A DNA stretch of 64,000 bases from Ilumatobacteraceae bacterium (lineage in GTDB: Bacteria; Actinomycetota; Acidimicrobiia; Acidimicrobiales; Ilumatobacteraceae). The notes beneath the pieces are model-generated. The model was not told where the DNA came from and ran no database searches. It saw only the letters and a program-made list of their open reading frames with translations. The position numbers and the translations under genes are program-made. Below are positions 18,057-46,338 of this stretch, in pieces (the first letter of the stretch is position 1; the number at the start of each line of letters is the position of its first letter). Location of the stretch: NCBI GenBank assembly GCA_022425725.1, contig JAKMEY010000001.1:1-64000 (forward strand). The letters are read 5' to 3'.

Positions 18057-18653
18057 TCAGTTCGGCTGCAGTGCCGCTCGCACGAAGCCGCGCAACTCGC
18101 GTCGAACCTGTCGAAGACCCGCAGCATTTGGCTCCCATCCGAAGGTTTCAAGCACGATCGGTTCGGTACCGGTACCCGACACCGTTGAGTACAGCAGTCC
18201 TGCCAAGACCATTGGGTCACACGTTCTGAGTCGCCCCTTCTCCATTTCAGACCTGAGGTAAGAAACACAACGCTCCACCACTACTGACAAACGGCCACGC
18301 AAATGGTTGATGTGGCTTTCATCGAGGCGTGTGACTTCGCGGATCAGCCCGAGAAGTGCTGGCCGACGCACCACCGGCCGGAACACCGCGCAAACAACAG
18401 CATCGACTCGGTCGAGTGGTTCATCACCTTGAGACCGAATGGCGGCCTCAACCACCACCAGCAATTCGTCAGCGGCGTGGTCAAGCACCGCATCGATCAG
18501 TCCACTTCGAGACTTAAACCAATAGAGAACTGTCTGTTTTCGGACACCAACCGCATCAGCAATGTCATCGAGTGAGACAGTTCCGACCCCACGCGTACCG
18601 AAGAGATCGAGCGCGGTGTCGAGAATTCGTATTCGGGTTGACCCGTTGACCAC
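18057..18653 (-). CDS. TetR-family transcriptional regulator
   Basis: This protein has 198 residues. The N-terminal helix-turn-helix (RIRILDTALDLFGTRGVGTVSLDDIADAVGVRKQTVLYWFKSR) occupies about residues 6-50, followed by a helical ligand-binding domain. The start is GTG. It is divergent from the four-gene lipid-type unit that begins at 18711. A perfect inverted repeat TCTACCA-AA-TGGTAGA sits in the 57-base spacer, so self-control plus control of that unit is likely. TetR proteins in such settings often respond to acyl-CoA, but the ligand here is unknown. Confidence 0.92.
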   Translation of the reverse strand: MVNGSTRIRILDTALDLFGTRGVGTVSLDDIADAVGVRKQTVLYWFKSRSGLIDAVLDHAADELLVVVEAAIRSQGDEPLDRVDAVVCAVFRPVVRRPALLGLIREVTRLDESHINHLRGRLSVVVERCVSYLRSEMEKGRLRTCDPMVLAGLLYSTVSGTGTEPIVLETFGWEPNAAGLRQVRRELRGFVRAALQPN

Positions 18654-18671
18654 ACAAAAGTTGTATCAGAT

Positions 18672-18703
18672 TTGTCTACCAAATGGTAGAGACGTGATAG
18701 AAC
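18672..18703 (+). promoter_or_regulatory. putative promoter of the reductase/LarA-like unit
   Basis: TTGTCT (18672-18677) serves as a -35 candidate. The overlapping GATAGA/TAGAAC (18696-18703) serves as -10, with an 18-20 base spacer. The GTG start follows TAGAAC by seven bases, and there is no Shine-Dalgarno, so the message is probably leaderless. Confidence 0.4.
18675..18690. promoter_or_regulatory. putative TetR operator (inverted repeat)
   Basis: TCTACCA and TGGTAGA form a perfect 7-bp inverted repeat around AA, in the middle of the TetR/reductase spacer and overlapping the proposed -35/-10 region. Size, symmetry and location are typical of TetR operators. Assignment to the adjacent TetR is an inference. 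Confidence 0.7.
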
Positions 18704-18710
18704 TATAGAT

Positions 18711-21059
18711 GTGATTGCACAGTCACTCTCCAAACGACGCATCGCGATTACCGGTTCAACCGGCTTTGTCGGCACTGCTCTCGTTGAACGTCTCCTGCGC
18801 GGCGTCCCCGACTGCGAACTCATCCTTCTCGTTCGCAACGGCCGCCGCACCCCTGCCGCTCGCAGAACGACCAGAGAAATTCTTGCCAACGACGCCTTCG
18901 ACCGCCTGCGGGAAGAGCACGCCACCTCTGACGAGTCGTTTGATGACATGTGCGCGCGAAGAATCACCACGATCGCCGGCGATGTCAGCGCCGATGGACT
19001 TGGCCTTTCTGATGAAGATCGGATGATCTTTTCGACCGCTGACACCATCATTCACTCAGCAGCAACAGTGTCGTTCGACTCCCCGTTAGACCAAGCAGTT
19101 GAGATCAACCTCCTTGGCCCTGTCCGCATTGCGCAGTTGTGCAACGACTTGGGCATCACACCCCACCTCGTTGCAGTGTCAACCTGTTACGTGGCGGGCA
19201 ACCGTCGGGGAACAGCACCCGAAGAACTTGTGTCAGAGGGGCCATTCGCCATCGGACTTGAGTGGAAAGACGAAGTCGAATCTGCACGGCGCCTTAAAGG
19301 CGATACCGAGGCCTCGTCACGCCAACCCGAACGCCTCCGCGAGTTTCGTAAACGAGCTCGCACCGAACTCGGCGCGGCCGGTGCTCCCGCTCTCGCTGCA
19401 AAAACGGAACAGCTGCGCGAACGCTGGGTGCGAGATCAGTTGGTTGGCGCAGGCCGTTCACGTGCGGCCTCGGTCGGTTGGCCTGATGCGTACGCGTTCA
19501 CAAAGGCCTTGGGCGAACAAGCGCTTACCGAGTCAAAAGGAAATGTTCCTGTCTCTATTGTGCGTCCATCAATTATCGAGTCCGCATGGGCAGAACCTCG
19601 TCCCGGCTGGATTCGCGGCTTCCGCATGGCGGAACCGGTCATCATCAGTTACGCACGAGGGCTTCTCAAAGAATTCCCCGGCGTTCCAGAAGGCACCATC
19701 GACGTCATTCCGGTCGACATCGTGGTTGCCGCAATCATTGCGGTCGCTGCAGCAGGCCCAGACGACGCGCCAGCCATCACACAGGTTGCCTCCGGTGGAA
19801 TCAATCCGCTGAAATATCGGACTCTTGTCAATCACGTGCGCAGTTGGTTCACCGAGAACCCGCTCTATGACAATGACGGACAACCAATCGTCGTTCCTGA
19901 ATGGCGATTCCCAGGTCGCGGCAAGGTACAGACCCAGTTATCTCGAGCGAAAACTGCGATCGAACGTGCCGAACACACGATGCAGATGTTGCCGCTTCGC
20001 GGGCGCCAGGCTGAGTTCGCTGCCACCTTGGAGACCCGGCGTCTCGAAGTCGAGCGAGCCCTTGAATACGTCGAGCTCTACGGCCTCTACACCGAATGCG
20101 AAGCGATCTACCAGGTTGACAACCTCATGCGACTATGGGACGAGATGCCCGATACCGACCGCCAGGCATTCTGTTTCGACCCACGAGTGGTCGATTGGAC
20201 TCACTACGTCCACGAAATTCACCTGCCGTCAATTATCGAACACGCTCGAGTGAAGAGCACTCCCGGCAAGGTCAAGACGGCAGACCGCACAACTCGGCTG
20301 CGCGGCCAGGTGCTTGACCCAAAACGTCAGGTCGCCGCATTCGACCTCGAGAACACCCTCATTGCGTCAAATGTTGTCGAGAGCTACTCATGGCTCGCCA
20401 CCCGTCGTCTCGACGGACGTGAACGGCTCAAATATGTTGCACGCACTCTTACCGAGGCGCCTGGCCTTCTCCGGATGGATCGGCGCGACCGCACCGACTT
20501 TTTGCGCCACTTCTACCGTCGATATGCAGATGCGCCTGTTGAACAAATCGACACCGATGTCGAGGCGATGCTCACCGGACTCATCATCTCGAAGTGCTTC
20601 CCTGAGGGAATACGTCGGGTGAGGGCTCACCGAGCTGCCGGCCACCGAACCGTCCTCATCACTGGCGCACTTTCATTCAACGTCGCTGGTTTGCGACCCC
20701 TCTTTGATGAGATCGTTGCAGCAGAGATGACGGTCCGGCCCGATGGCACTCTCTCAGGTGAGATGACGACCGTGCCGCCCACCGGCGAGGCACGTGCCCA
20801 AATCTTGGCTGATTACTGCGATGCCGAGAACCTTCGTCTCGACGAATGTGTGGCGTATGCAGATTCTTCTTCCGACCTGCCCCTCTTCGAAGCGGTCGGT
20901 TTTCCTGTGGCGGTGAATCCCGAAACTCGCCTTGCTTCGATTGCGAGAAAACGAGGGTGGCTGGTTGAACATTGGTCAAAGGCAAAGGGAGGCCCCCGGA
21001 ATCTTCTTCCGATCGGCCCGATGCTTTCTGAACGCGAACAACGGAGGCAGTTCCTGTGA
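18711..21059 (+). CDS. fatty acyl-CoA reductase-like SDR fused to HAD-IB phosphatase-like domain
   Basis: This is a 782-residue fusion. Residues 8-400 are an extended SDR of the fatty acyl-CoA reductase type (NAD_binding_4): Rossmann loop ITGSTGFVGTALVERLL, IIHSAATVSFD, VSTCYVAG, and catalytic Tyr261/Lys265 in YAFTK. Residues 538-780 are a HAD-IB domain: motif I FDLENTLI with Asp545 and Glu547 where most HADs have a second Asp, motif II TVLITGAL, and motif IV YADSSSDLPLFEA. The first half would reduce an acyl-CoA to an aldehyde or alcohol; the HAD half may remove a phosphate. Between them is a helical linker (about 400-530) that I do not recognise. First gene of a tight four-gene unit, GTG start. 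Confidence 0.88.
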   Translation: MIAQSLSKRRIAITGSTGFVGTALVERLLRGVPDCELILLVRNGRRTPAARRTTREILANDAFDRLREEHATSDESFDDMCARRITTIAGDVSADGLGLSDEDRMIFSTADTIIHSAATVSFDSPLDQAVEINLLGPVRIAQLCNDLGITPHLVAVSTCYVAGNRRGTAPEELVSEGPFAIGLEWKDEVESARRLKGDTEASSRQPERLREFRKRARTELGAAGAPALAAKTEQLRERWVRDQLVGAGRSRAASVGWPDAYAFTKALGEQALTESKGNVPVSIVRPSIIESAWAEPRPGWIRGFRMAEPVIISYARGLLKEFPGVPEGTIDVIPVDIVVAAIIAVAAAGPDDAPAITQVASGGINPLKYRTLVNHVRSWFTENPLYDNDGQPIVVPEWRFPGRGKVQTQLSRAKTAIERAEHTMQMLPLRGRQAEFAATLETRRLEVERALEYVELYGLYTECEAIYQVDNLMRLWDEMPDTDRQAFCFDPRVVDWTHYVHEIHLPSIIEHARVKSTPGKVKTADRTTRLRGQVLDPKRQVAAFDLENTLIASNVVESYSWLATRRLDGRERLKYVARTLTEAPGLLRMDRRDRTDFLRHFYRRYADAPVEQIDTDVEAMLTGLIISKCFPEGIRRVRAHRAAGHRTVLITGALSFNVAGLRPLFDEIVAAEMTVRPDGTLSGEMTTVPPTGEARAQILADYCDAENLRLDECVAYADSSSDLPLFEAVGFPVAVNPETRLASIARKRGWLVEHWSKAKGGPRNLLPIGPMLSEREQRRQFL

Positions 21060-22252
21060 GAGCGCTGCAAGTTCAACACAATGTTCGGCGATTCGGTGCT
21101 GCTCGCCTGCTCTCGGTCACGAGCCCGAAAGCCTCGGCTCGGATTGCACCAGTTCATTTAAAGAACGTTGATGACCCCCCTGAACCAGCCAGTGTGGGCT
21201 GGTCGAAGGTCGCAACTCGGCTCGCCGGAATTTGTGGCTCAGATCTTGCACTCATCGACGGCCATGCCTCCACCTACTTTGAAGACTTCGTCTCATTTCC
21301 GTTGATTCCCGGGCATGAGATCATTGGGGAACTTGAGTCTGGTCAGCGTGTTGTCATCGAACCTGTTCTCGGACATTCTGCTCGTGGCTCTGTGCCGCCA
21401 TGGGAATCTGCAGCACCCGCTGATGGAGACGACTACGCCCACCTGGTTCGAGGACACCTGAAGCCCGGAATTCAAACCGGCTTCTGCTGCTCAACCGGAG
21501 GGGGCTGGGCACCGTGGTTTTGGGCGCACGAGTCGCAACTTCATCCGGTACCCGATGACATGTCAGATGAGACGGCGGTGCTGGTTGAACCCCTTGCTGG
21601 CTCTGTTCACGCCGCGCTTATTGCGACGCAACACACGAATCACCATCTCACCGATACCGAGTCACCCATCATTGCCGTTATTGGTGCCGGCACAATGGGA
21701 TTGGGTGCCATCGCTGCCGTTCGTGGCGCACTGCCGAATGCGCGGATTATTGCTGGGGCTCGTTACCCCCACCAGATGAGATTTGCGAAAGGTCTTGGGG
21801 CTGACGTGGTTGCTCCAGGCGACGAACTTTCGCGAGCCGTACGTCGTATGTCGGGCGCCCACCGCATTGGAGCGAGCCTGTCGTCGGGTGCGCACGCAAC
21901 GATCAATGCCGTTGGCGACAGCGCATCGATTGCGTTGTCGATCAACATCACTCGCCCCCGAGGCGCAGCTGTCGTACTCGGTATGCCCGGAGACACCAAA
22001 CTTGACCTCACTCCCCTGTGGCATCGTGAGGTTGCGCTGCTCGGCGCGTACACCTATGGCACCGAACACATCGATGGGGCCGACGTACGAACCTTCGATC
22101 TTGCCCTTGCCCTAGCCGCACGCATCGATGCAGAGCGCCTACTTTCTGCCACCTATCGCCTCGACGAACATGTTGAGGCCCTCGCACATGCCGCCTCTGC
22201 TGGACGGCGCGGCGCCGTAAAAATCGCTTTTGATCTACGAGAGGACCACTAA
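21056..22252 (+). CDS. zinc-type medium-chain alcohol dehydrogenase-like protein
   Basis: This 398-residue member of the medium-chain dehydrogenase family starts at a GTG overlapping the previous stop (GTGA). The N-terminal catalytic domain has GICGSDLALIDG (catalytic Zn Cys) and LIPGHEIIGE (His-Glu). The Rossmann domain has VIGAGTMGLGAIAAV. The structural-zinc region is replaced by a different insert (EPVLGHSARGSVPPW to FCCSTGGGW), so it is not a typical ADH and may be an unusual subgroup. It would oxidise or reduce an alcohol/aldehyde, perhaps the product of the upstream reductase. Tightly coupled on both sides. Confidence 0.8.
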   Translation: MRALQVQHNVRRFGAARLLSVTSPKASARIAPVHLKNVDDPPEPASVGWSKVATRLAGICGSDLALIDGHASTYFEDFVSFPLIPGHEIIGELESGQRVVIEPVLGHSARGSVPPWESAAPADGDDYAHLVRGHLKPGIQTGFCCSTGGGWAPWFWAHESQLHPVPDDMSDETAVLVEPLAGSVHAALIATQHTNHHLTDTESPIIAVIGAGTMGLGAIAAVRGALPNARIIAGARYPHQMRFAKGLGADVVAPGDELSRAVRRMSGAHRIGASLSSGAHATINAVGDSASIALSINITRPRGAAVVLGMPGDTKLDLTPLWHREVALLGAYTYGTEHIDGADVRTFDLALALAARIDAERLLSATYRLDEHVEALAHAASAGRRGAVKIAFDLREDH

Positions 22253-23838
22253 TGCCACGTCCCGGATTTGTATTAGACGTTGATCGCTCAACGCCGCCAA
22301 TGCTGTTCTGGCATGGGGAGAAGTTCAGTCTCGAGCGACTTCCGGCCGACCGCAGCCGAGTGATTTACCCCGCAGAGTCATTCCCAGGTCTCGAAGATCC
22401 CCAATCAGCAATTCGTGATGCTCTTGAGAATCCTCTCGATATGGAGCCGCTTCGCGCCCTTCTTCATGCCGATATGAAGCTCACCATCTGCTTCGACGAC
22501 GCAAGTCTCTCGCTACCCAAGATGCGTCGTCCCGACTCGCGCCAGCGGATTATCGAAGCCGTACTCGACCTAGCCGCAGAGGCTGGAGTCGACGATGTTC
22601 ACATCATCGCGGCGCTTGGCCTTCACCGTCGCATGCACGACTACGAGCTACGTCATGTGCTCGGTGATCGAATCTTTGATGCATTCGCTCCCAACGGAAC
22701 GCTCTATCAGCACGATGCAGAGGACCCCGAAAATCTAGTGGTCCTCGGAGAAACCGATCACGGCGAAGTTCTCGAGATCAATCGTCGAGTCGCTGAATCA
22801 GATCTCGTCGTCTACGCAAACGTCAATCAGGTTGCGATGGATGGCGGTTGGAAATCGCTCGTCACTGGGGTGGCCTCGTATCAGTGCTTGAGCTACCACC
22901 ACAACCCAGAATCTCTGCAGAACACCCGAAGCTTGATGGATCGCCACCATTCCGCCCTTCATCACTCGATATGGCGCCTCGGAAAGGTGCTGCGCGACAG
23001 CGGGCCGAAGGTGTTTCAAATCGAATCAACGATCAACACCGACGCATTTCCATCGCCGTTCGATTTTCTCTCAAAACGCGAATGGGAGTGGACGGCTCGC
23101 GACCGAATGACCTACCTCGCAACTGCGAAAACGTTGGACCGTATGCCTCGGCGCGCCGCGCGGAAAATTTTTCATGGAATTGAGGCGCCATATGCGATGA
23201 CCGGCGTCTACGCAGGTTTCACCGAAAGCGTCCATGAACGCACTCTTGAAGATGTCTACCGCCAGCACATCGTCGAGGTTGAAGGTCAAACCGACATCTT
23301 GACTCTCGGCGTGCCATTCATCAGCCCATACAACCCTGAATCGATTATGAATCCGATTCTCGTGATGTGTATGGGACTTGGCTACATGTTCAACATGTAC
23401 CGCAACAAACCGCTCGTTCGCGAAGGCGGTGTCATCATCATGACCCACCCGACGTACCGAGATTTCCATCCCGTTCACCACCCGAGCTACATCGACTTCT
23501 TCGATGAAGTTCTCGCTGACACCACCGACCCTGCTGTCATGTCCGAGAAATGGGAAAAGCGCTACGCCGAAGACGAGTGGTATCGCCACCTCTACCGAAC
23601 CGGCAACGCCTACCACGGCGTGCATCCGTTCTATGCCTGGTACTGGGGTGCCCACGGACAGCAGTGGGCCGGCAAAGTCATCATCGTTGGAGGTGACCCC
23701 ACGGCAGTGCGGCGTATGGGATTCACCCCTGCGTCGACGATGGACGACGCGTTCGAGTTGGCAAGCGACGTCGTTGGCCGCTCACCTTCCATTACCCACC
23801 TTCACGTACCGTCCGTTCTCGTTGCCGACGTGAAATAG
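22252..23838 (+). CDS. LarA-like (lactate racemase family, DUF2088) protein
   Basis: This 528-residue protein matches the N-terminal domain of the lactate racemase family. CFDDASLSLPKMRRP stands for the usual DHTRP loop. IIAALGLHRRMHDYELRHVLG corresponds to the ATGxHR motif, with His125 at the His108 position of LarA. VAESDLVVY is followed by DGGWKSLVTG, with Lys201 equal to the Lys184 that binds the nickel-pincer nucleotide. By simple spacing, the other catalytic His (LarA His174) is Val191 here. The protein is about 100 residues longer than LarA. A stereo-inversion of an alpha-hydroxy compound is possible but unproven. Its ATG shares one base with the previous stop. Confidence 0.75.
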   Translation: MPRPGFVLDVDRSTPPMLFWHGEKFSLERLPADRSRVIYPAESFPGLEDPQSAIRDALENPLDMEPLRALLHADMKLTICFDDASLSLPKMRRPDSRQRIIEAVLDLAAEAGVDDVHIIAALGLHRRMHDYELRHVLGDRIFDAFAPNGTLYQHDAEDPENLVVLGETDHGEVLEINRRVAESDLVVYANVNQVAMDGGWKSLVTGVASYQCLSYHHNPESLQNTRSLMDRHHSALHHSIWRLGKVLRDSGPKVFQIESTINTDAFPSPFDFLSKREWEWTARDRMTYLATAKTLDRMPRRAARKIFHGIEAPYAMTGVYAGFTESVHERTLEDVYRQHIVEVEGQTDILTLGVPFISPYNPESIMNPILVMCMGLGYMFNMYRNKPLVREGGVIIMTHPTYRDFHPVHHPSYIDFFDEVLADTTDPAVMSEKWEKRYAEDEWYRHLYRTGNAYHGVHPFYAWYWGAHGQQWAGKVIIVGGDPTAVRRMGFTPASTMDDAFELASDVVGRSPSITHLHVPSVLVADVK

Positions 23839-23843
23839 CTCTC

Positions 23844-24860
23844 ATGCGTTCGAAACGTCACATCACCAAGCGGGCACAGCAGTTCGCCGGTCGGGCTGAG
23901 CGGACCATTCGGTCAGTTGCGAAGCCCCTTGCGAAGTACGGTTTTCCGTGGCGTGCTCCGACGGTGCCCCGAGGTATTGAGGTACCCGAGAAACCGGACA
24001 CTCTCGGCGGCAACTTCGAAACCGATTGGGCACGCCGCCCTCTCGCATCGGTTGCTCGATCAGCCTTTATCGCTGGGCCACTCAAATTAATGACTACCGT
24101 GATCGCCCGCCCTGAGGTACACGGACTCGATCGCCTTGCCGACCTTTCGCGTCTTGACGACCCGCCACCACTTATTTTTGCTCCTGACCACCACAGCCAT
24201 CTCGACACCGTTGTCATGATTCGAGCAATCCCTACGGCATGGCGACAGGATCTCGTCGTTGCCGCAGCTGCCGACTATTTCTTTGACAAGCGCTGGAAGG
24301 CCACGTTTTCTGCGCTTGCATTGAACGCAATTCCGATTGATCGCGAGGCGACAGGACGCCAATCTGCCGATCTCTTTAAGGAACTCATCGATGACGGACG
24401 GAGTCTGTTGATCTACCCAGAGGGCGGTCGCTCGCCGGATGGCTGGGCCCAACCGTTCAAAGGTGGAGCTGCTTATCTCTCAGCAAAAACTGGGGTTGCT
24501 GTTGTACCGGTTCACATTGAGGGCACCGGCGCAATCTTCGGCAAAGGCATGAAACGGCCACGACCAGGCCGCACCCGGGTGATTTTTGGGGCGCCGCTCA
24601 CTTCATATGAAGATGAAAACACGCGTCGCTATAACGCTCGCATCGAGTCAGCTGTGGGGCGCCTCACAGAGGAGTCGGTGAGCGATTACTGGACCGCTGC
24701 CCGCAAAGCGTCAACCGGGTCCGCAGACCGACTTAGCGGTCCCGAAACAGCAAGTTGGCGACGCAAATGGGTGCTCACCGACAGGCGGCACCGTGAAGTT
24801 TCAGGAAGAAATAGCCGGCCTGAACGCGACTGGCCCAATCTCGGTCCACGCGCCAAATAG
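23844..24860 (+). CDS. 1-acylglycerol-3-phosphate acyltransferase-like protein (PlsC family)
   Basis: This 338-residue protein has a PlsC domain at about residues 85-260. Motif I is DHHSHLDT (the HX4D acyltransferase motif), motif III IYPEGGRSPDG, and motif IV VVPVHIEG. The first 70 residues are basic and Arg/Lys-rich, and the last 60 are polar and probably disordered. Members move an acyl group from acyl-CoA or acyl-ACP to a glycerol-type hydroxyl at the inner membrane surface. It closes the four-gene unit, five bases after the LarA-like gene, which ties that unit to lipid synthesis. Confidence 0.87.
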   Translation: MRSKRHITKRAQQFAGRAERTIRSVAKPLAKYGFPWRAPTVPRGIEVPEKPDTLGGNFETDWARRPLASVARSAFIAGPLKLMTTVIARPEVHGLDRLADLSRLDDPPPLIFAPDHHSHLDTVVMIRAIPTAWRQDLVVAAAADYFFDKRWKATFSALALNAIPIDREATGRQSADLFKELIDDGRSLLIYPEGGRSPDGWAQPFKGGAAYLSAKTGVAVVPVHIEGTGAIFGKGMKRPRPGRTRVIFGAPLTSYEDENTRRYNARIESAVGRLTEESVSDYWTAARKASTGSADRLSGPETASWRRKWVLTDRRHREVSGRNSRPERDWPNLGPRAK

Positions 24861-41882: not shown

Positions 41883-42650
41883 CTACGACTTGGGAGGCCG
41901 AGGAATGAATGCGCTCGTGCGATCGATATACGCCTGATATTCAGGCTTACGACGCACGAGCGAACGCTCGAGAAGGGCAACGCCCGAAACTTTCAGCAAT
42001 AAGACATTCATTACAGCGGCACCAATGAGCCCCCACACGCCAACACTTACCGAGCATGCGACGATCGCAATTCCCCACCACACGCAGGTATCACCGAAGT
42101 AGTTCGGATGCCGCGTGTATCGCCACAAACCTGCATCAAGCACTTTTCCTTGATTCGCTGAATCTGCCTTGAATCGCGAGAGCTGAATGTCACCGACCAC
42201 TTCGAAATACAGGCCGACGGCCCACAGCATTACCCCGATCACCGCAAGCACTCCGATTGAGCCCTCGGCGCGATGCGACAACTGGACAGGCAACGACACG
42301 ACCCACATCAGCGTCCCCTGAAGCGTGTACACCGTTAAGAAACTGATGAGGGGAAACGCCTGGCCCCATCGTTTCCTCATTGCGACGTAGCGATAATCCT
42401 CGCCATGCCCAAGATTTCTTCGAGCGAGATACAGGCACAGGCGGAGACCCCACAACAACGTCATGAGCCATAACAGCGTGTCGAGACTTGATTTCGCGTC
42501 GTCTGCAATCCATAACACCGTCGCCACGGTCGCGAAGCCGAGACCCCACGAGATGTCAACGATTGACGCGTCCTTGATTGCGACGCTAATCAGCCACGTC
42601 GCAACCATCAAGATCGCGATTGTCAGCGCTGCCAGTAACAGTTCGTTCAT
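41883..42650 (-). CDS. DUF1295 family membrane protein (steroid 5-alpha-reductase-like fold)
   Basis: This 255-residue integral membrane protein has about six or seven helices. The C-terminal motif LWRYTRHPNYFGDTCVWWGIA is the NADPH/SAM-type binding block shared by DUF1295, steroid 5-alpha-reductases and isoprenylcysteine methyltransferases. DUF1295 members are usually described as steroid-reductase-like, with unknown substrates. It starts four bases inside the end of the acyltransferase gene (ATGA), so the two are translationally coupled. A lipid or isoprenoid substrate is plausible. Confidence 0.87.
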   Translation of the reverse strand: MNELLLAALTIAILMVATWLISVAIKDASIVDISWGLGFATVATVLWIADDAKSSLDTLLWLMTLLWGLRLCLYLARRNLGHGEDYRYVAMRKRWGQAFPLISFLTVYTLQGTLMWVVSLPVQLSHRAEGSIGVLAVIGVMLWAVGLYFEVVGDIQLSRFKADSANQGKVLDAGLWRYTRHPNYFGDTCVWWGIAIVACSVSVGVWGLIGAAVMNVLLLKVSGVALLERSLVRRKPEYQAYIDRTSAFIPRPPKS

Positions 42651-43654
42651 GATGTCTTCCTTAGTTGTTCGTCAACTTCACTATCCATCTTTGCCCAAAT
42701 GTCATCGAGCCATCCGCCATTGACATCGGGAAGTGACGACCGTTGCAGCCGCCGTGCCCGAAATACGATCTGCACATTGTTGCGCCCAAGTGCCGTAATG
42801 ACCCCGCCGAATGTCGACAGCCCATCGAAACCGGTATGCCACGCAATCACGAGGTCAGCGTCAGGAGCACCGTCAAGCAATGCGAGCGTCCCACTCGGAC
42901 GCACTGGGATCAGATGCTGAAGGACTTCGGTGGCTGCGAGGCGCTCGGGCGATTGATCACGAATCTTCTCTACTGCCCGCTTGCGTTTCGCATCACTCGA
43001 ACGTGTCCCCTCGGGAAAGATGACAGCAACATCTGAAGCGGCAAGGTCACCTGACAGTCTGGTGACTGCTGCGAGTTCATTGGCTGATTGATGTGAACCT
43101 CGATCAACGAAATAGTTGGGTACTCGTAAACCCACGATGTCGAGGCATGGATCCCACAACAATTCACGCTTCAAGACATACCGGGGTGATAACCCTCGGT
43201 TGGTGCAGATCACCCAGGCAGAGACCAACGAGTCAGCGAGACTCGCATGCCGACACAGCACCACCGCATTTCCCTCGTTGAATGCGTCAGTGTCGTCGAC
43301 GTCGATTGTTGCACGCATCGCAACACGCAGACCGGTCATCAATTTGCCAGCCCACCATCCCATCAACCGATAGTGCAGCACTTGATTTTTTGACTGGCCT
43401 GACATCCACAGCCCAAGCGAAATGATCACTCCAGCGCATTCGATGATTGACCAATACCACCCAAACAGCAACAGCCGAGCGAGAGGAAACCGCCACCGCA
43501 ACCGCACACCATCAATGGCAATGGCGATAGCGATCCACATCGGCGCGCTTATCGTTGCGACGATCGCCACCACCACCAGGGCGCTCACACTGATCGAACG
43601 TCGTTTCAGGCGCGCCTGAAACGAGGCGTAATCAGGAGGTTGTTGTCGACTCAT
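42647..43654 (-). CDS. PlsC-family acyltransferase, membrane-anchored
   Basis: This 335-residue protein has two hydrophobic segments in the first 90 residues (VSALVVVAIVATISAPMWIAI and LFGWYWSIIECAGVIISLGL). They are followed by an acyltransferase domain: CRHASLADS (HX4D motif), YVLKRELLWDPCLD, and IFPEGTRSS (motif III). It resembles the acyltransferases of the lysophosphatidic-acid type with an N-terminal anchor. It begins 23 bases inside larE and is coupled to the DUF1295 gene, forming larE-plsC-DUF1295. Confidence 0.87.
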   Translation of the reverse strand: MSRQQPPDYASFQARLKRRSISVSALVVVAIVATISAPMWIAIAIAIDGVRLRWRFPLARLLLFGWYWSIIECAGVIISLGLWMSGQSKNQVLHYRLMGWWAGKLMTGLRVAMRATIDVDDTDAFNEGNAVVLCRHASLADSLVSAWVICTNRGLSPRYVLKRELLWDPCLDIVGLRVPNYFVDRGSHQSANELAAVTRLSGDLAASDVAVIFPEGTRSSDAKRKRAVEKIRDQSPERLAATEVLQHLIPVRPSGTLALLDGAPDADLVIAWHTGFDGLSTFGGVITALGRNNVQIVFRARRLQRSSLPDVNGGWLDDIWAKMDSEVDEQLRKTS

Positions 43655-44477
43655 GAGGATTTAACGACCCCGAACGGAACCCTCCAAGGTCAACTGTTAC
43701 ATAGCGGAATCCCAACACAAGTAGTCGCTGTTCAACGTGATCACGGGCATCGATAACGCTCTGGAGGTCACCCTGCTCAACTTCGATACGAGCGACTTCG
43801 CCATGATGCCGCACGCGGCACGAACGGATACCGAGGTCGTGCAGCACCTGTTCAGCTCGCTCCACCTTTGAGAGAATTTCAACGGTCACCTCGGTGCCGA
43901 ACGGAATTCGACTTGCAAGGCATGCGGCTGCTGGTTTATCCCATGTTTCGAGCTTGAACGACCGGGACAGTTCGCGAATCTCGACCTTCGACAGACCTGC
44001 TTCGACAAAGGGGAATCGCGCTCCGGCTTCAGATGCAGCCTGCTGTCCTGGACGATGGTCATCGAGATCGTCGAGGTTGACGCCCAACACCACCGTCGCC
44101 CCAGAATCGACAAACGGCTGAAGAGCATCCATAAGCGCTGACTTGCAATGAAAGCACCGGTCGATGTCATTGCGCCGATATGCGGCCTGCTCCATCTCAT
44201 CAGTTGTCACTGCAACCCAGTCAAGGTTCCATGCCTCGGCGAGACGCGAACAATCATCAAATTCAGAGCCGGCAAGTGATGGCGACACCGCTGTTACCGC
44301 AGTCGCAGTCACACCAGCGGTAGAGGCAGCCACATATGCAAGAAGGGAAGAATCGGCTCCACCACTAAACGCAACGACCACATGCTGCATCTCTAAAAAA
44401 GCCTCACGGAGGGCTGCCAACTTGTCGGAGAGATCAGTGCTCAGCACAGTCGACGCAGCAGTAGGTCCCACGTCCAT
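43632..44477 (-). CDS. larE: ATP-dependent sacrificial sulfur transferase LarE
   Basis: This protein of 281 residues is close to the length of characterised LarE (276). The PP-loop SGGADSS (38-44) adenylates the substrate; CFHC (Cys108, Cys111) and ACLASR (Cys186, near the sacrificial Cys176 of Lactiplantibacillus LarE) are visible. LarE inserts sulfur into the pyridinium dicarboxylate precursor of the nickel-pincer nucleotide used by LarA. Some LarE enzymes use three Cys to hold a [4Fe-4S] cluster instead of sacrificing one; the three Cys here would allow that. larB and larC are not in this window, but a LarA-like gene is (22252-23838). The start excludes 33 residues that overlap typA. Confidence 0.87.
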   Translation of the reverse strand: MDVGPTAASTVLSTDLSDKLAALREAFLEMQHVVVAFSGGADSSLLAYVAASTAGVTATAVTAVSPSLAGSEFDDCSRLAEAWNLDWVAVTTDEMEQAAYRRNDIDRCFHCKSALMDALQPFVDSGATVVLGVNLDDLDDHRPGQQAASEAGARFPFVEAGLSKVEIRELSRSFKLETWDKPAAACLASRIPFGTEVTVEILSKVERAEQVLHDLGIRSCRVRHHGEVARIEVEQGDLQSVIDARDHVEQRLLVLGFRYVTVDLGGFRSGSLNPHESTTTS

Positions 44478-44502
44478 ATCCTGCCAGATCAGCACCGATG
44501 GT

Positions 44503-46338
44503 TTAGGACGTTGCCCGAGAACGAGCCTGCCGAATTCGCTCTTGCGGGTCGAGGTAGACCTTTCGTAGGCGTACATGCGCCGGAGTTACCTCCACGCATT
44601 CGTCACTTGCAATGAACTCGAGAGCTTGCTCAAGCGACATCTGACGGTGGGGGGTGAGTTTGACAGTCTCGTCTGCTGAGGAAGCTCGCATATTCGTGAG
44701 CTTCTTCTCACGACAAATATTCACTTCCATATCTCCTGCACGCGAATTCTCACCGATGATCATTCCCTCGTAAACCTCTGTCCCTGGCGGAATGAGCATC
44801 GTTGAACGCTCCTGAAGATTAATCATCGCGTATGTCGTCGCAGGACCGGTTCGGTCCGCCACCAACGACCCTCGTTCGCGTGACCTGATATCTCCCGCCC
44901 ATGGCTCGTAACCCTCAAACACGTGGCTGATCACCCCAGTTCCACGAGTTTCGGTCAAGAATTCTGTTCTGAAGCCGATCAAACCTCTCGCAGGTACGAG
45001 ATATTCAAGACGCACCCAGCCGAGGCCATGGTTTGCCATGTTTTCCATGCGTCCGCGACGCACGGCGAGGAGTTGCGTGACCGTACCGAGATGTTCTTCT
45101 GGGACGTCAATAGTGACGCGCTCAACCGGTTCGTGTCGCTTCTCATCAATCGTTCGAGTGACGACCTCTGGTTTACCGACAGTGAGTTCGAAACCCTCTC
45201 GTCGCATCGTTTCGATGAGCACTGCGAGTTGCAGTTCGCCACGGGCGAGAACTTCCCATGCGTCTGGGCGTTCGGTTTGGTGAACCCGAAGCGAAACGTT
45301 TCCGATGAGCTCCTGTTCAAGGCGGCTTTTCACGAGACGAGCGGTGAGTCGATCACCATTCCTGCCGGCAAGCGGGGAGGTGTTAATTCCGATCGTCATC
45401 GACAACGCAGGTTCGTCAACGGTGATGACCGGGAGAGGTGTTGGATGCTCAATGTCGGCAAGGGTTTCGCCGATGGTGATGTTGTCGATACCTGCCACCG
45501 CAACAAGGTCACCAGCCGATGCTGATTCGACAGACACTCGCTCAAGGTGCTGAGTGAGGAAGAGTTCAACAACTTTCGCTCGTACGGTTGTTCCGTCAGC
45601 CCGGCACCACGCGACCTGCTGACCACGATGAATTTCCCCTTCGATCACTCGGCAGAGCGCGAGGCGCCCGAGATAGGGGCTCGCGTCAAGGTTCGTGACC
45701 CACGCTTGCAGTGGTGCTCCCTCGGTGAAGGCAGGGGCTGGAACGGTACTCACGATCGTCTCGAACAGAGGCGTGAGATCGGTGCCGCTGGTGTTCTCCT
45801 CTACCGACGCCCAGCCCGAGCGACCCGAGGAGTACACGATAGGAAAGTCGAGTTGGTCAGCGTCAGCGTCGAGGTCGAGGAACAGTTCGTATACCTCGTC
45901 GACCACTGCCGAGATTCGGGCATCAGGTCGGTCAACTTTGTTGATGACGAGGATGACCGGTAGGTGCTGTGCAAGCGCTTTGCGCAGCACGAAACGTGTC
46001 TGAGGCAACGGGCCCTCGGCGGCATCGACGAGCAAGATGATGCCGTCGACCATGGTGAGCGCACGTTCAACCTCACCGCCAAAATCGGCGTGCCCTGGGG
46101 TGTCGACGATGTTGAACGTGATGTCGTTCCACACCAGCGATGTGTTCTTTGCGAGGATTGTGATTCCTTTTTCGCGTTCGAGGTCCATTGAATCCATGAC
46201 GCGTTCGGCGACGGTCTCGTTGACTCGGAACGCGCCCGATTGCTGCAGCATCGAGTCAACAAGGGTGGTTTTGCCGTGGTCGACGTGGGCGACGATTGCG
46301 ATGTTGCGGAGATCTTCTCTCTTCGATGTGGGGGGCAC
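44503..46338 (-). CDS. typA: ribosome-associated translational GTPase TypA/BipA
   Basis: This 611-residue GTPase has the expected length. G1 is AHVDHGKTTL, followed by G3 DTPGHADFGGEVER and G4 NKVDRPDA. The C-terminal half has the EF-G-like domains III and V and the BipA-specific end (GPATTYAMINLQERSTMLIPPG, then SLEQALEFIASDECVEVTP). TypA binds 70S ribosomes and helps ribosome assembly and stress adaptation. GTG start. It lies between the nitroreductase gene (20 bases) and larE (25 bases), so it shares their operon. Confidence 0.97.
   Translation of the reverse strand: MPPTSKREDLRNIAIVAHVDHGKTTLVDSMLQQSGAFRVNETVAERVMDSMDLEREKGITILAKNTSLVWNDITFNIVDTPGHADFGGEVERALTMVDGIILLVDAAEGPLPQTRFVLRKALAQHLPVILVINKVDRPDARISAVVDEVYELFLDLDADADQLDFPIVYSSGRSGWASVEENTSGTDLTPLFETIVSTVPAPAFTEGAPLQAWVTNLDASPYLGRLALCRVIEGEIHRGQQVAWCRADGTTVRAKVVELFLTQHLERVSVESASAGDLVAVAGIDNITIGETLADIEHPTPLPVITVDEPALSMTIGINTSPLAGRNGDRLTARLVKSRLEQELIGNVSLRVHQTERPDAWEVLARGELQLAVLIETMRREGFELTVGKPEVVTRTIDEKRHEPVERVTIDVPEEHLGTVTQLLAVRRGRMENMANHGLGWVRLEYLVPARGLIGFRTEFLTETRGTGVISHVFEGYEPWAGDIRSRERGSLVADRTGPATTYAMINLQERSTMLIPPGTEVYEGMIIGENSRAGDMEVNICREKKLTNMRASSADETVKLTPHRQMSLEQALEFIASDECVEVTPAHVRLRKVYLDPQERIRQARSRATS

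Follow-up and report, generated by a model that had tools for sequence, protein, structure and literature searches.

A conserved actinobacterial gene unit that joins a LarA-like protein to enzymes of lipid synthesis

Why would an actinobacterium encode a protein of the LarA family, predicted to use the nickel-pincer nucleotide (NPN) cofactor, among genes for lipid synthesis? The question is raised by positions 1 to 64,000 of contig JAKMEY010000001.1 from an Ilumatobacteraceae bacterium (GCA_022425725.1), a stretch hereafter called the window, in which four consecutive genes encode a fatty acyl-CoA reductase fused to a HAD phosphatase-type domain (FAR-HAD), a zinc alcohol dehydrogenase (ADH), a LarA-like protein and a PlsC-type acyltransferase (Table 1). 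An original prediction, made from the sequence of the window, had described them as one unit under a divergent TetR gene, serving an unusual lipid, for example hydroxylated or ether-type, that would need a stereo-inversion step by LarA. We report that the four genes are more than a chance neighbourhood and form a conserved unit in several actinobacterial classes. As to function, the reading we prefer, at a probability of roughly 0.45, is that the product of the unit is an uncommon glycerolipid precursor, most probably a 1-O-alkyl (ether) glycerol phosphate destined for membrane lipids of mixed ether/ester type, and that LarA moves a hydride without racemising.

Conservation of the four-gene unit

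The gene order (TetR, FAR-HAD, ADH, LarA-like, PlsC) and spacing are exactly as had been claimed. Open reading frame coordinates, from which gene starts were read, give an overlap of 4 bases between FAR-HAD and ADH (21056-21059), an overlap of 1 base between ADH and LarA (22252), and a gap of 5 bases between LarA and PlsC (23839-23843). We compared this arrangement across 169 fetched loci carrying a LarA of the LarAH14/15/16 type, from Acidimicrobiia and other classes, some genomes having entered twice through two collections. Adjacency that is only local, the outcome named beforehand as fatal to the idea of a unit, was not what we found: all four genes lay on one strand in 123 loci, with median gaps of -4, -1 and +5 bases. 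The TetR gene, on the opposite strand in the window, was located in 113 loci and is likewise divergent in 108 of them. LarA and PlsC were present in all of the first 60 neighbourhoods (L033-L092), with FAR-HAD and ADH in nearly all and in the same order, and in classes other than Acidimicrobiia nearly every high-scoring LarA was preceded by FAR-HAD and ADH, which were absent beside more distant LarAs.

The distribution of the genes among genomes agrees with their synteny, and together the two bear out the claim of one conserved unit. FAR-HAD was found in 64/64 genomes with this LarA among 296 from across the phylum, many of them metagenome-assembled genomes (MAGs); Fisher's test gives p ~3e-63 by treating genomes as independent, which they are not, shared descent being ignored in our statistics. 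Only two of the 296 (G138 and G312) have FAR-HAD without this LarA. The LarAH14/15/16 model had matches in 80 of 100 relatives of the window genome, 73 of them above its cut-off. Among the 73 relatives that are at least 90% complete, LarA and FAR-HAD were both present in 62 and both absent in 11, which shows that they are lost together; all 11 of the latter also lack LarC. Families f1 and f22 each include genomes with the unit and genomes that have lost it.

An all-against-all clustering of 89 neighbourhoods, in which a fifth conserved neighbour was sought, yielded outside Acidimicrobiales only PlsY (in Rubrobacteraceae) and larE/B/C as recurrent and interpretable genes, the small clusters being partly annotated; in Acidimicrobiales the unit is flanked mostly by murF and glutamate synthase genes. 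Seven Acidimicrobiales loci (L078, L079, L084, L085, L089, L090 and L092) have FAR-HAD next to LarA and no zinc ADH in the unit. Some FAR-HAD matches show apparent in-frame stops; in the one case checked (L044) the match extends just past the true stop codon, and the remaining cases are taken to have the same explanation.

Active site and cofactor of the LarA-like protein

Over residues 6-528 the LarA-like protein matches the NCBIfam model of LarAH14/15/16 (NF052592) and scores 852 bits, above the curated cut-off of 740. Its predicted structure (pLDDT 81, pTM 0.85) has 9q3k as best fold match (Z 33.5, rmsd 3.0 over 447 residues); scores against all LarA chains range from Z 22 to 33.5, and the next unrelated fold reaches 5.9. 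The L. plantarum LarA has two acid/bases, His108 and His174; its NPN is attached to Lys184, and His200 is a nickel ligand (PMC7583248, PMC12611868). The equivalents of three of these residues are invariant across our 169 sequences, and the fourth position is the one that differs, a second catalytic histidine being found in 0/169 sequences of this group (Table 1). The LarAH14 of Frankia showed no activity in seven racemase/epimerase assays (PMC7583248). Because of this missing histidine and the inactive Frankia homologue, the stereo-inversion step of the original prediction is unlikely, and we dropped it as the leading reading; the LarA-like protein, without half of the flipping machinery, probably carries out another hydride-moving step.

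LarB, LarC and LarE make NPN, and the known clients of this cofactor are LarA proteins. The window genome encodes a single LarA-type protein together with larB, larC and larE, the first two side by side on another contig (G000:C12:16594-18383). Among the well-covered relatives, LarC accompanies LarA in 56, LarA occurs alone in 6, LarC alone in none, and neither is present in 11. In four genomes from families other than that of the window genome, lar genes adjoin the unit: in L198, L199 and L200 the unit is followed at once by larE, larB and larC on its own strand, while in L191 larB and larC adjoin it and the larE match is on the other strand. Use of NPN by the LarA-like protein is thus well supported, not proved, since the only LarA of the genome coexists with larB/C/E, LarC never occurs without LarA, and larB/C(/E) stand beside the unit in these four loci.

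A looser linkage was seen in several genomes of the genus (window; G003, G005, G006, G013), where some 20 kb separate larE from larA on one contig, even when larB and larC are elsewhere. Directly downstream of larE, the window encodes a second PlsC-type acyltransferase (42647-43654, minus strand) and a DUF1295 (steroid-reductase-like) membrane protein (41883-42650, minus strand). The window corresponds to G000:C22 in a 2.13 Mb assembly of 84 contigs, and the closest named relatives of this genome are Ilumatobacteraceae, other Acidimicrobiia MAGs and Ilumatobacter nonamiensis.

Table 1. Features of the unit and of related genes in the window, with the evidence for each.
Feature	Coordinates	Strand	Evidence
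TetR-family regulator, divergent	18057..18653	-	PF00440 40.9 bits
57-base intergenic TetR/FAR-HAD region, presumed promoter and operator	18654..18710	.	inferred from position
Fatty acyl-CoA reductase (GxTGFxG, YxxxK) fused to HAD-IB phosphatase-type domain, 782 aa	18711..21059	+	NAD_binding_4 199 bits, HAD 86 bits
HAD-IB domain, motif I D-x-E, motif IV D718/D722 kept	20331..20960	+	TIGR01490 100 bits
Zinc medium-chain dehydrogenase/reductase, polyol/ketose type, 398 aa	21056..22252	+	ADH_N, ADH_zinc_N
LarA-like NPN enzyme (predicted), LarAH14/15/16 family, single catalytic His, 528 aa	22252..23838	+	Lar_N 127 bits; NF052592 852 bits
His125, equivalent of catalytic His108	22624..22626	+	kept 169/169; aligned to solved LarAs
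Asn190-x-Asn192, in loop where LarA has catalytic His174	22819..22827	+	both Asn 169/169, no His; loop placed by alignment to solved LarAs
Lys201, equivalent of NPN-binding Lys184	22852..22854	+	kept 169/169
His217, equivalent of nickel ligand His200	22900..22902	+	kept 169/169
PlsC-type acyltransferase, 338 aa	23844..24860	+	PF01553 (Acyltransferase) 64 bits; HxxxxD, PEGGRS
larE, NPN cofactor synthesis, ~20 kb from unit	43632..44576	-	TIGR00268 291 bits

Partner enzymes, proposed pathway and its rivals

The reductase domain is closest to the fatty acyl-CoA reductase 7eoz (224 bits), and its TGxTGFxG motif and Y261/K265 are invariant in 17 FAR-HAD sequences; in the HAD domain, R695 occupies what we read as the presumed place of the motif III Lys. 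The closest matches of the ADH are ketose reductase 1e3j (72 bits) and sorbitol dehydrogenase, and its Cys60, His87, Glu88 and Glu178 are kept in the alignment, and in PlsC the HxxxxD (His116/Asp121) and PEG (PEGGRS) motifs are conserved. The Rubrobacteraceae version of the unit is without PlsC and has a PlsY-matching gene directly upstream of FAR-HAD, in a cluster of nine loci for which the PlsY match was obtained with two members. PlsY is a glycerol-3-phosphate enzyme. The lipid context proposed at the outset is upheld by FAR, by PlsC and, in Rubrobacteraceae, by PlsY. The guess of an ether-type lipid agrees with what is known of Rubrobacterales, which make ether/ester lipids and whose core lipids are about 46% ether-linked (PMC10821996, citing Sinninghe Damste 2023).

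We assigned genome family f57 to Rubrobacteraceae by coordinates, from the LarA place in G170:C2 (59780-60370) and the larA of the Rubrobacter indicoceani plasmid NZ_CP031116.1 (59765-61036). This plasmid gene (L231) encodes a different LarA, beside genes for a MaoC dehydratase, MmgE/PrpD and an acyl-CoA dehydrogenase, possibly a set for hydroxy-acid degradation; plasmid records in general held only LarA types other than LarAH14/15/16.

In the preferred reading every chemical step is inferred, and so are the loading of LarA with NPN, the formation of an ether, the substrates, the sequence of reactions and what the HAD domain does. FAR would reduce a fatty acyl-CoA to a fatty aldehyde or alcohol. 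The NPN bound to LarA may abstract a hydride from C2 of the glycerol in a lipid adduct, His125 serving as base; with its one catalytic His, LarA would oxidise a single stereochemical form of the C2 hydroxyl, and the resulting C2 ketone would permit ether formation at C1, as in alkyl-dihydroxyacetone phosphate (alkyl-DHAP) synthase; alternatively, the hydride could be delivered to the alkyl C1'. The zinc ADH would interconvert C2 ketone and alcohol, converting alkyl-DHAP to alkyl-glycerol-3-phosphate, PlsC would add the sn-2 acyl chain, and PlsY would supply 1-acyl-glycerol-3-phosphate in Rubrobacteraceae. That the single-His LarA itself forms the ether bond or shuttles the hydride, for example by joining a fatty aldehyde and glycerol-3-phosphate into alkyl-DHAP with transfer of the C2 hydride to the alkyl C1' in an NPN-dependent hidden redox step, is a bolder proposal that we consider unlikely; if true, bacteria would have a further route to ether lipids, and the nickel-pincer cofactor would have its first reaction on a lipid.

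Two established ether-lipid routes were considered for the unit and set aside. The anaerobic Ger/PlsA route was rejected on the absence of DUF2229, which we take to be its marker, from 8/8 genomes tested, four of them Rubrobacteraceae. The other candidate was AGPS, the alkyl-DHAP synthase. An AGPS-like flavoprotein with an SHHHGVG motif is encoded in the window genome (L234:739-2241, on G000:C49; 180 bits to 2uuu) and is kept by relatives without the unit, and a search with one query at the strict cut-off of 1e-50, in which ElbD was not searched, found no AGPS-like match in the sampled Rubrobacteraceae, including 23 with FAR-HAD. For both reasons AGPS does not track the unit (20/64 carriers against 48/232 other genomes, p 0.09), and we provisionally set it aside as the ether step.

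Several observations weigh against the ether-lipid reading. Of the 169 loci, 24 gave no ADH and 15 no PlsC, some of these lying at contig ends. Motif I of the HAD domain is altered, DxE standing in 12/17 sequences and DxD in 5/17, so that phosphatase activity is uncertain. Six of the 62 well-covered carriers have no LarC match (G003, G071, G076, G078, G089, G093), and three of them (G076, G078, G093) are also without LarE above cut-off, though the residues that bind NPN show no variation in the LarA set, so that either NPN dependence is not universal or the MAGs have gaps. The AGPS-like gene of the window genome means that the ordinary AGPS route could give ether lipids without LarA, and the strictness of the AGPS cut-off bears on the negative result in Rubrobacteraceae. 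We know of no NPN enzyme that acts on lipids, and found no lipid analysis of Ilumatobacteraceae in the literature.

These same carriers without LarC would suit a LarA-like protein that has left NPN chemistry for some other role in the operon, as would the omission of group 16 by Desguin et al., who found its NPN-binding residues not conserved; we regard this as very improbable given the invariance of Lys201, His217 and His125 and the presence of larB/C/E, in the window genome with no other LarA and next to the unit in four loci. Inversion of a stereocentre in a 2-hydroxy lipid or its precursor, with FAR and PlsC handling the hydroxylated lipid, is suggested by membership of the LarA superfamily, by the NPN-binding residues and by the lipid-gene neighbours, yet the missing histidine and the seven negative assays already described make it quite improbable.

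Two further pathways were weighed as rivals. Long-chain 1,2-diol lipids occur in deep-branching actinobacteria, and the unit might make these or hydroxyketone lipids if FAR reduced a 2-hydroxyacyl-CoA, LarA catalysed a C1/C2 hydride shift in the hydroxyaldehyde, ADH reduced the ketone and PlsC acylated the diol. The polyol/ketose class of the ADH and the hydride shift to an adjacent site proposed for single-His LarAHs are in line with this, whereas PlsY in the Rubrobacteraceae version is a glycerol-3-phosphate enzyme and the unit-carrying Rubrobacterales are reported to have glycerol ether lipids (PMC10821996), and we hold diols to be rather improbable. An operon for fatty alcohols or for wax-ester or other storage lipids, in which LarA would act on a soluble substrate that feeds the glycerol headgroup, such as an acid derived from glycerol or from a sugar, would suit FAR and PlsC, and other single-His LarAs have been assigned to carbohydrate metabolism by context (PMC12611868); the tight co-occurrence of LarA and FAR-HAD points instead to a shared pathway, and no further lipid-storage gene recurred in the neighbourhood clustering, where most small clusters are unannotated, making such an operon unlikely.

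The ether-lipid reading makes two questions testable, namely the role of LarA homologues with one catalytic histidine and the way in which aerobic actinobacteria (Rubrobacterales) without a recognised ether-forming enzyme build their ether lipids. If it is true, the nickel-pincer cofactor would take part in building membrane lipids across a large and common group of environmental bacteria. The abstract of a 2023 study by Sinninghe Damste and co-workers reportedly describes a putative 1-O-alkyl glycerol phosphate operon in all five Rubrobacter genomes, like the operon of other aerobic bacteria. The organisms are the same, and this may be the LarA/FAR-HAD operon; were it so, the pathway would have been assigned in print before, leaving at most the LarA/NPN part as new.

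Comparison with known systems

Within the LarA superfamily, the window protein matches the LarAH14/15/16 family, including the Frankia LarAH14, over its full length and is missing the second catalytic histidine, a lack also described in groups 14 and 15; the family has no reaction assigned to it. Classical LarA racemases and epimerases have two catalytic histidines, of which only His125 is kept here. We found no published link of this family to a FAR-HAD/ADH/PlsC operon in the literature consulted. The closest folds, 9q3k and 9q3j (Z 33.5 and 30.9), are single-histidine LarAs of Streptococcus plurextorum and Blautia wexlerae in which the other histidine is also replaced by Asn; they have been assigned to a carbohydrate context and share 24% identity with the window protein, whose loop is shorter and reads N-x-N.

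The AGPS route offers a proposed parallel in its chemistry, combining the logic of a C2 ketone with a FAR-derived fatty alcohol, but AGPS is a flavoenzyme, unlike the LarA-like protein. In gene content the unit resembles the myxobacterial elb operon (ElbA-E; PMC9131029). That operon has in addition ACS and ACP domains (ElbD), which a profile search did not find in the four window genes, and epimerase-type proteins, whereas a LarA or zinc ADH is not described there. What the two have in common is a FAR1-like reductase, a HAD protein and an AGPAT-type acyltransferase in a single operon, a combination that the window unit holds in full.

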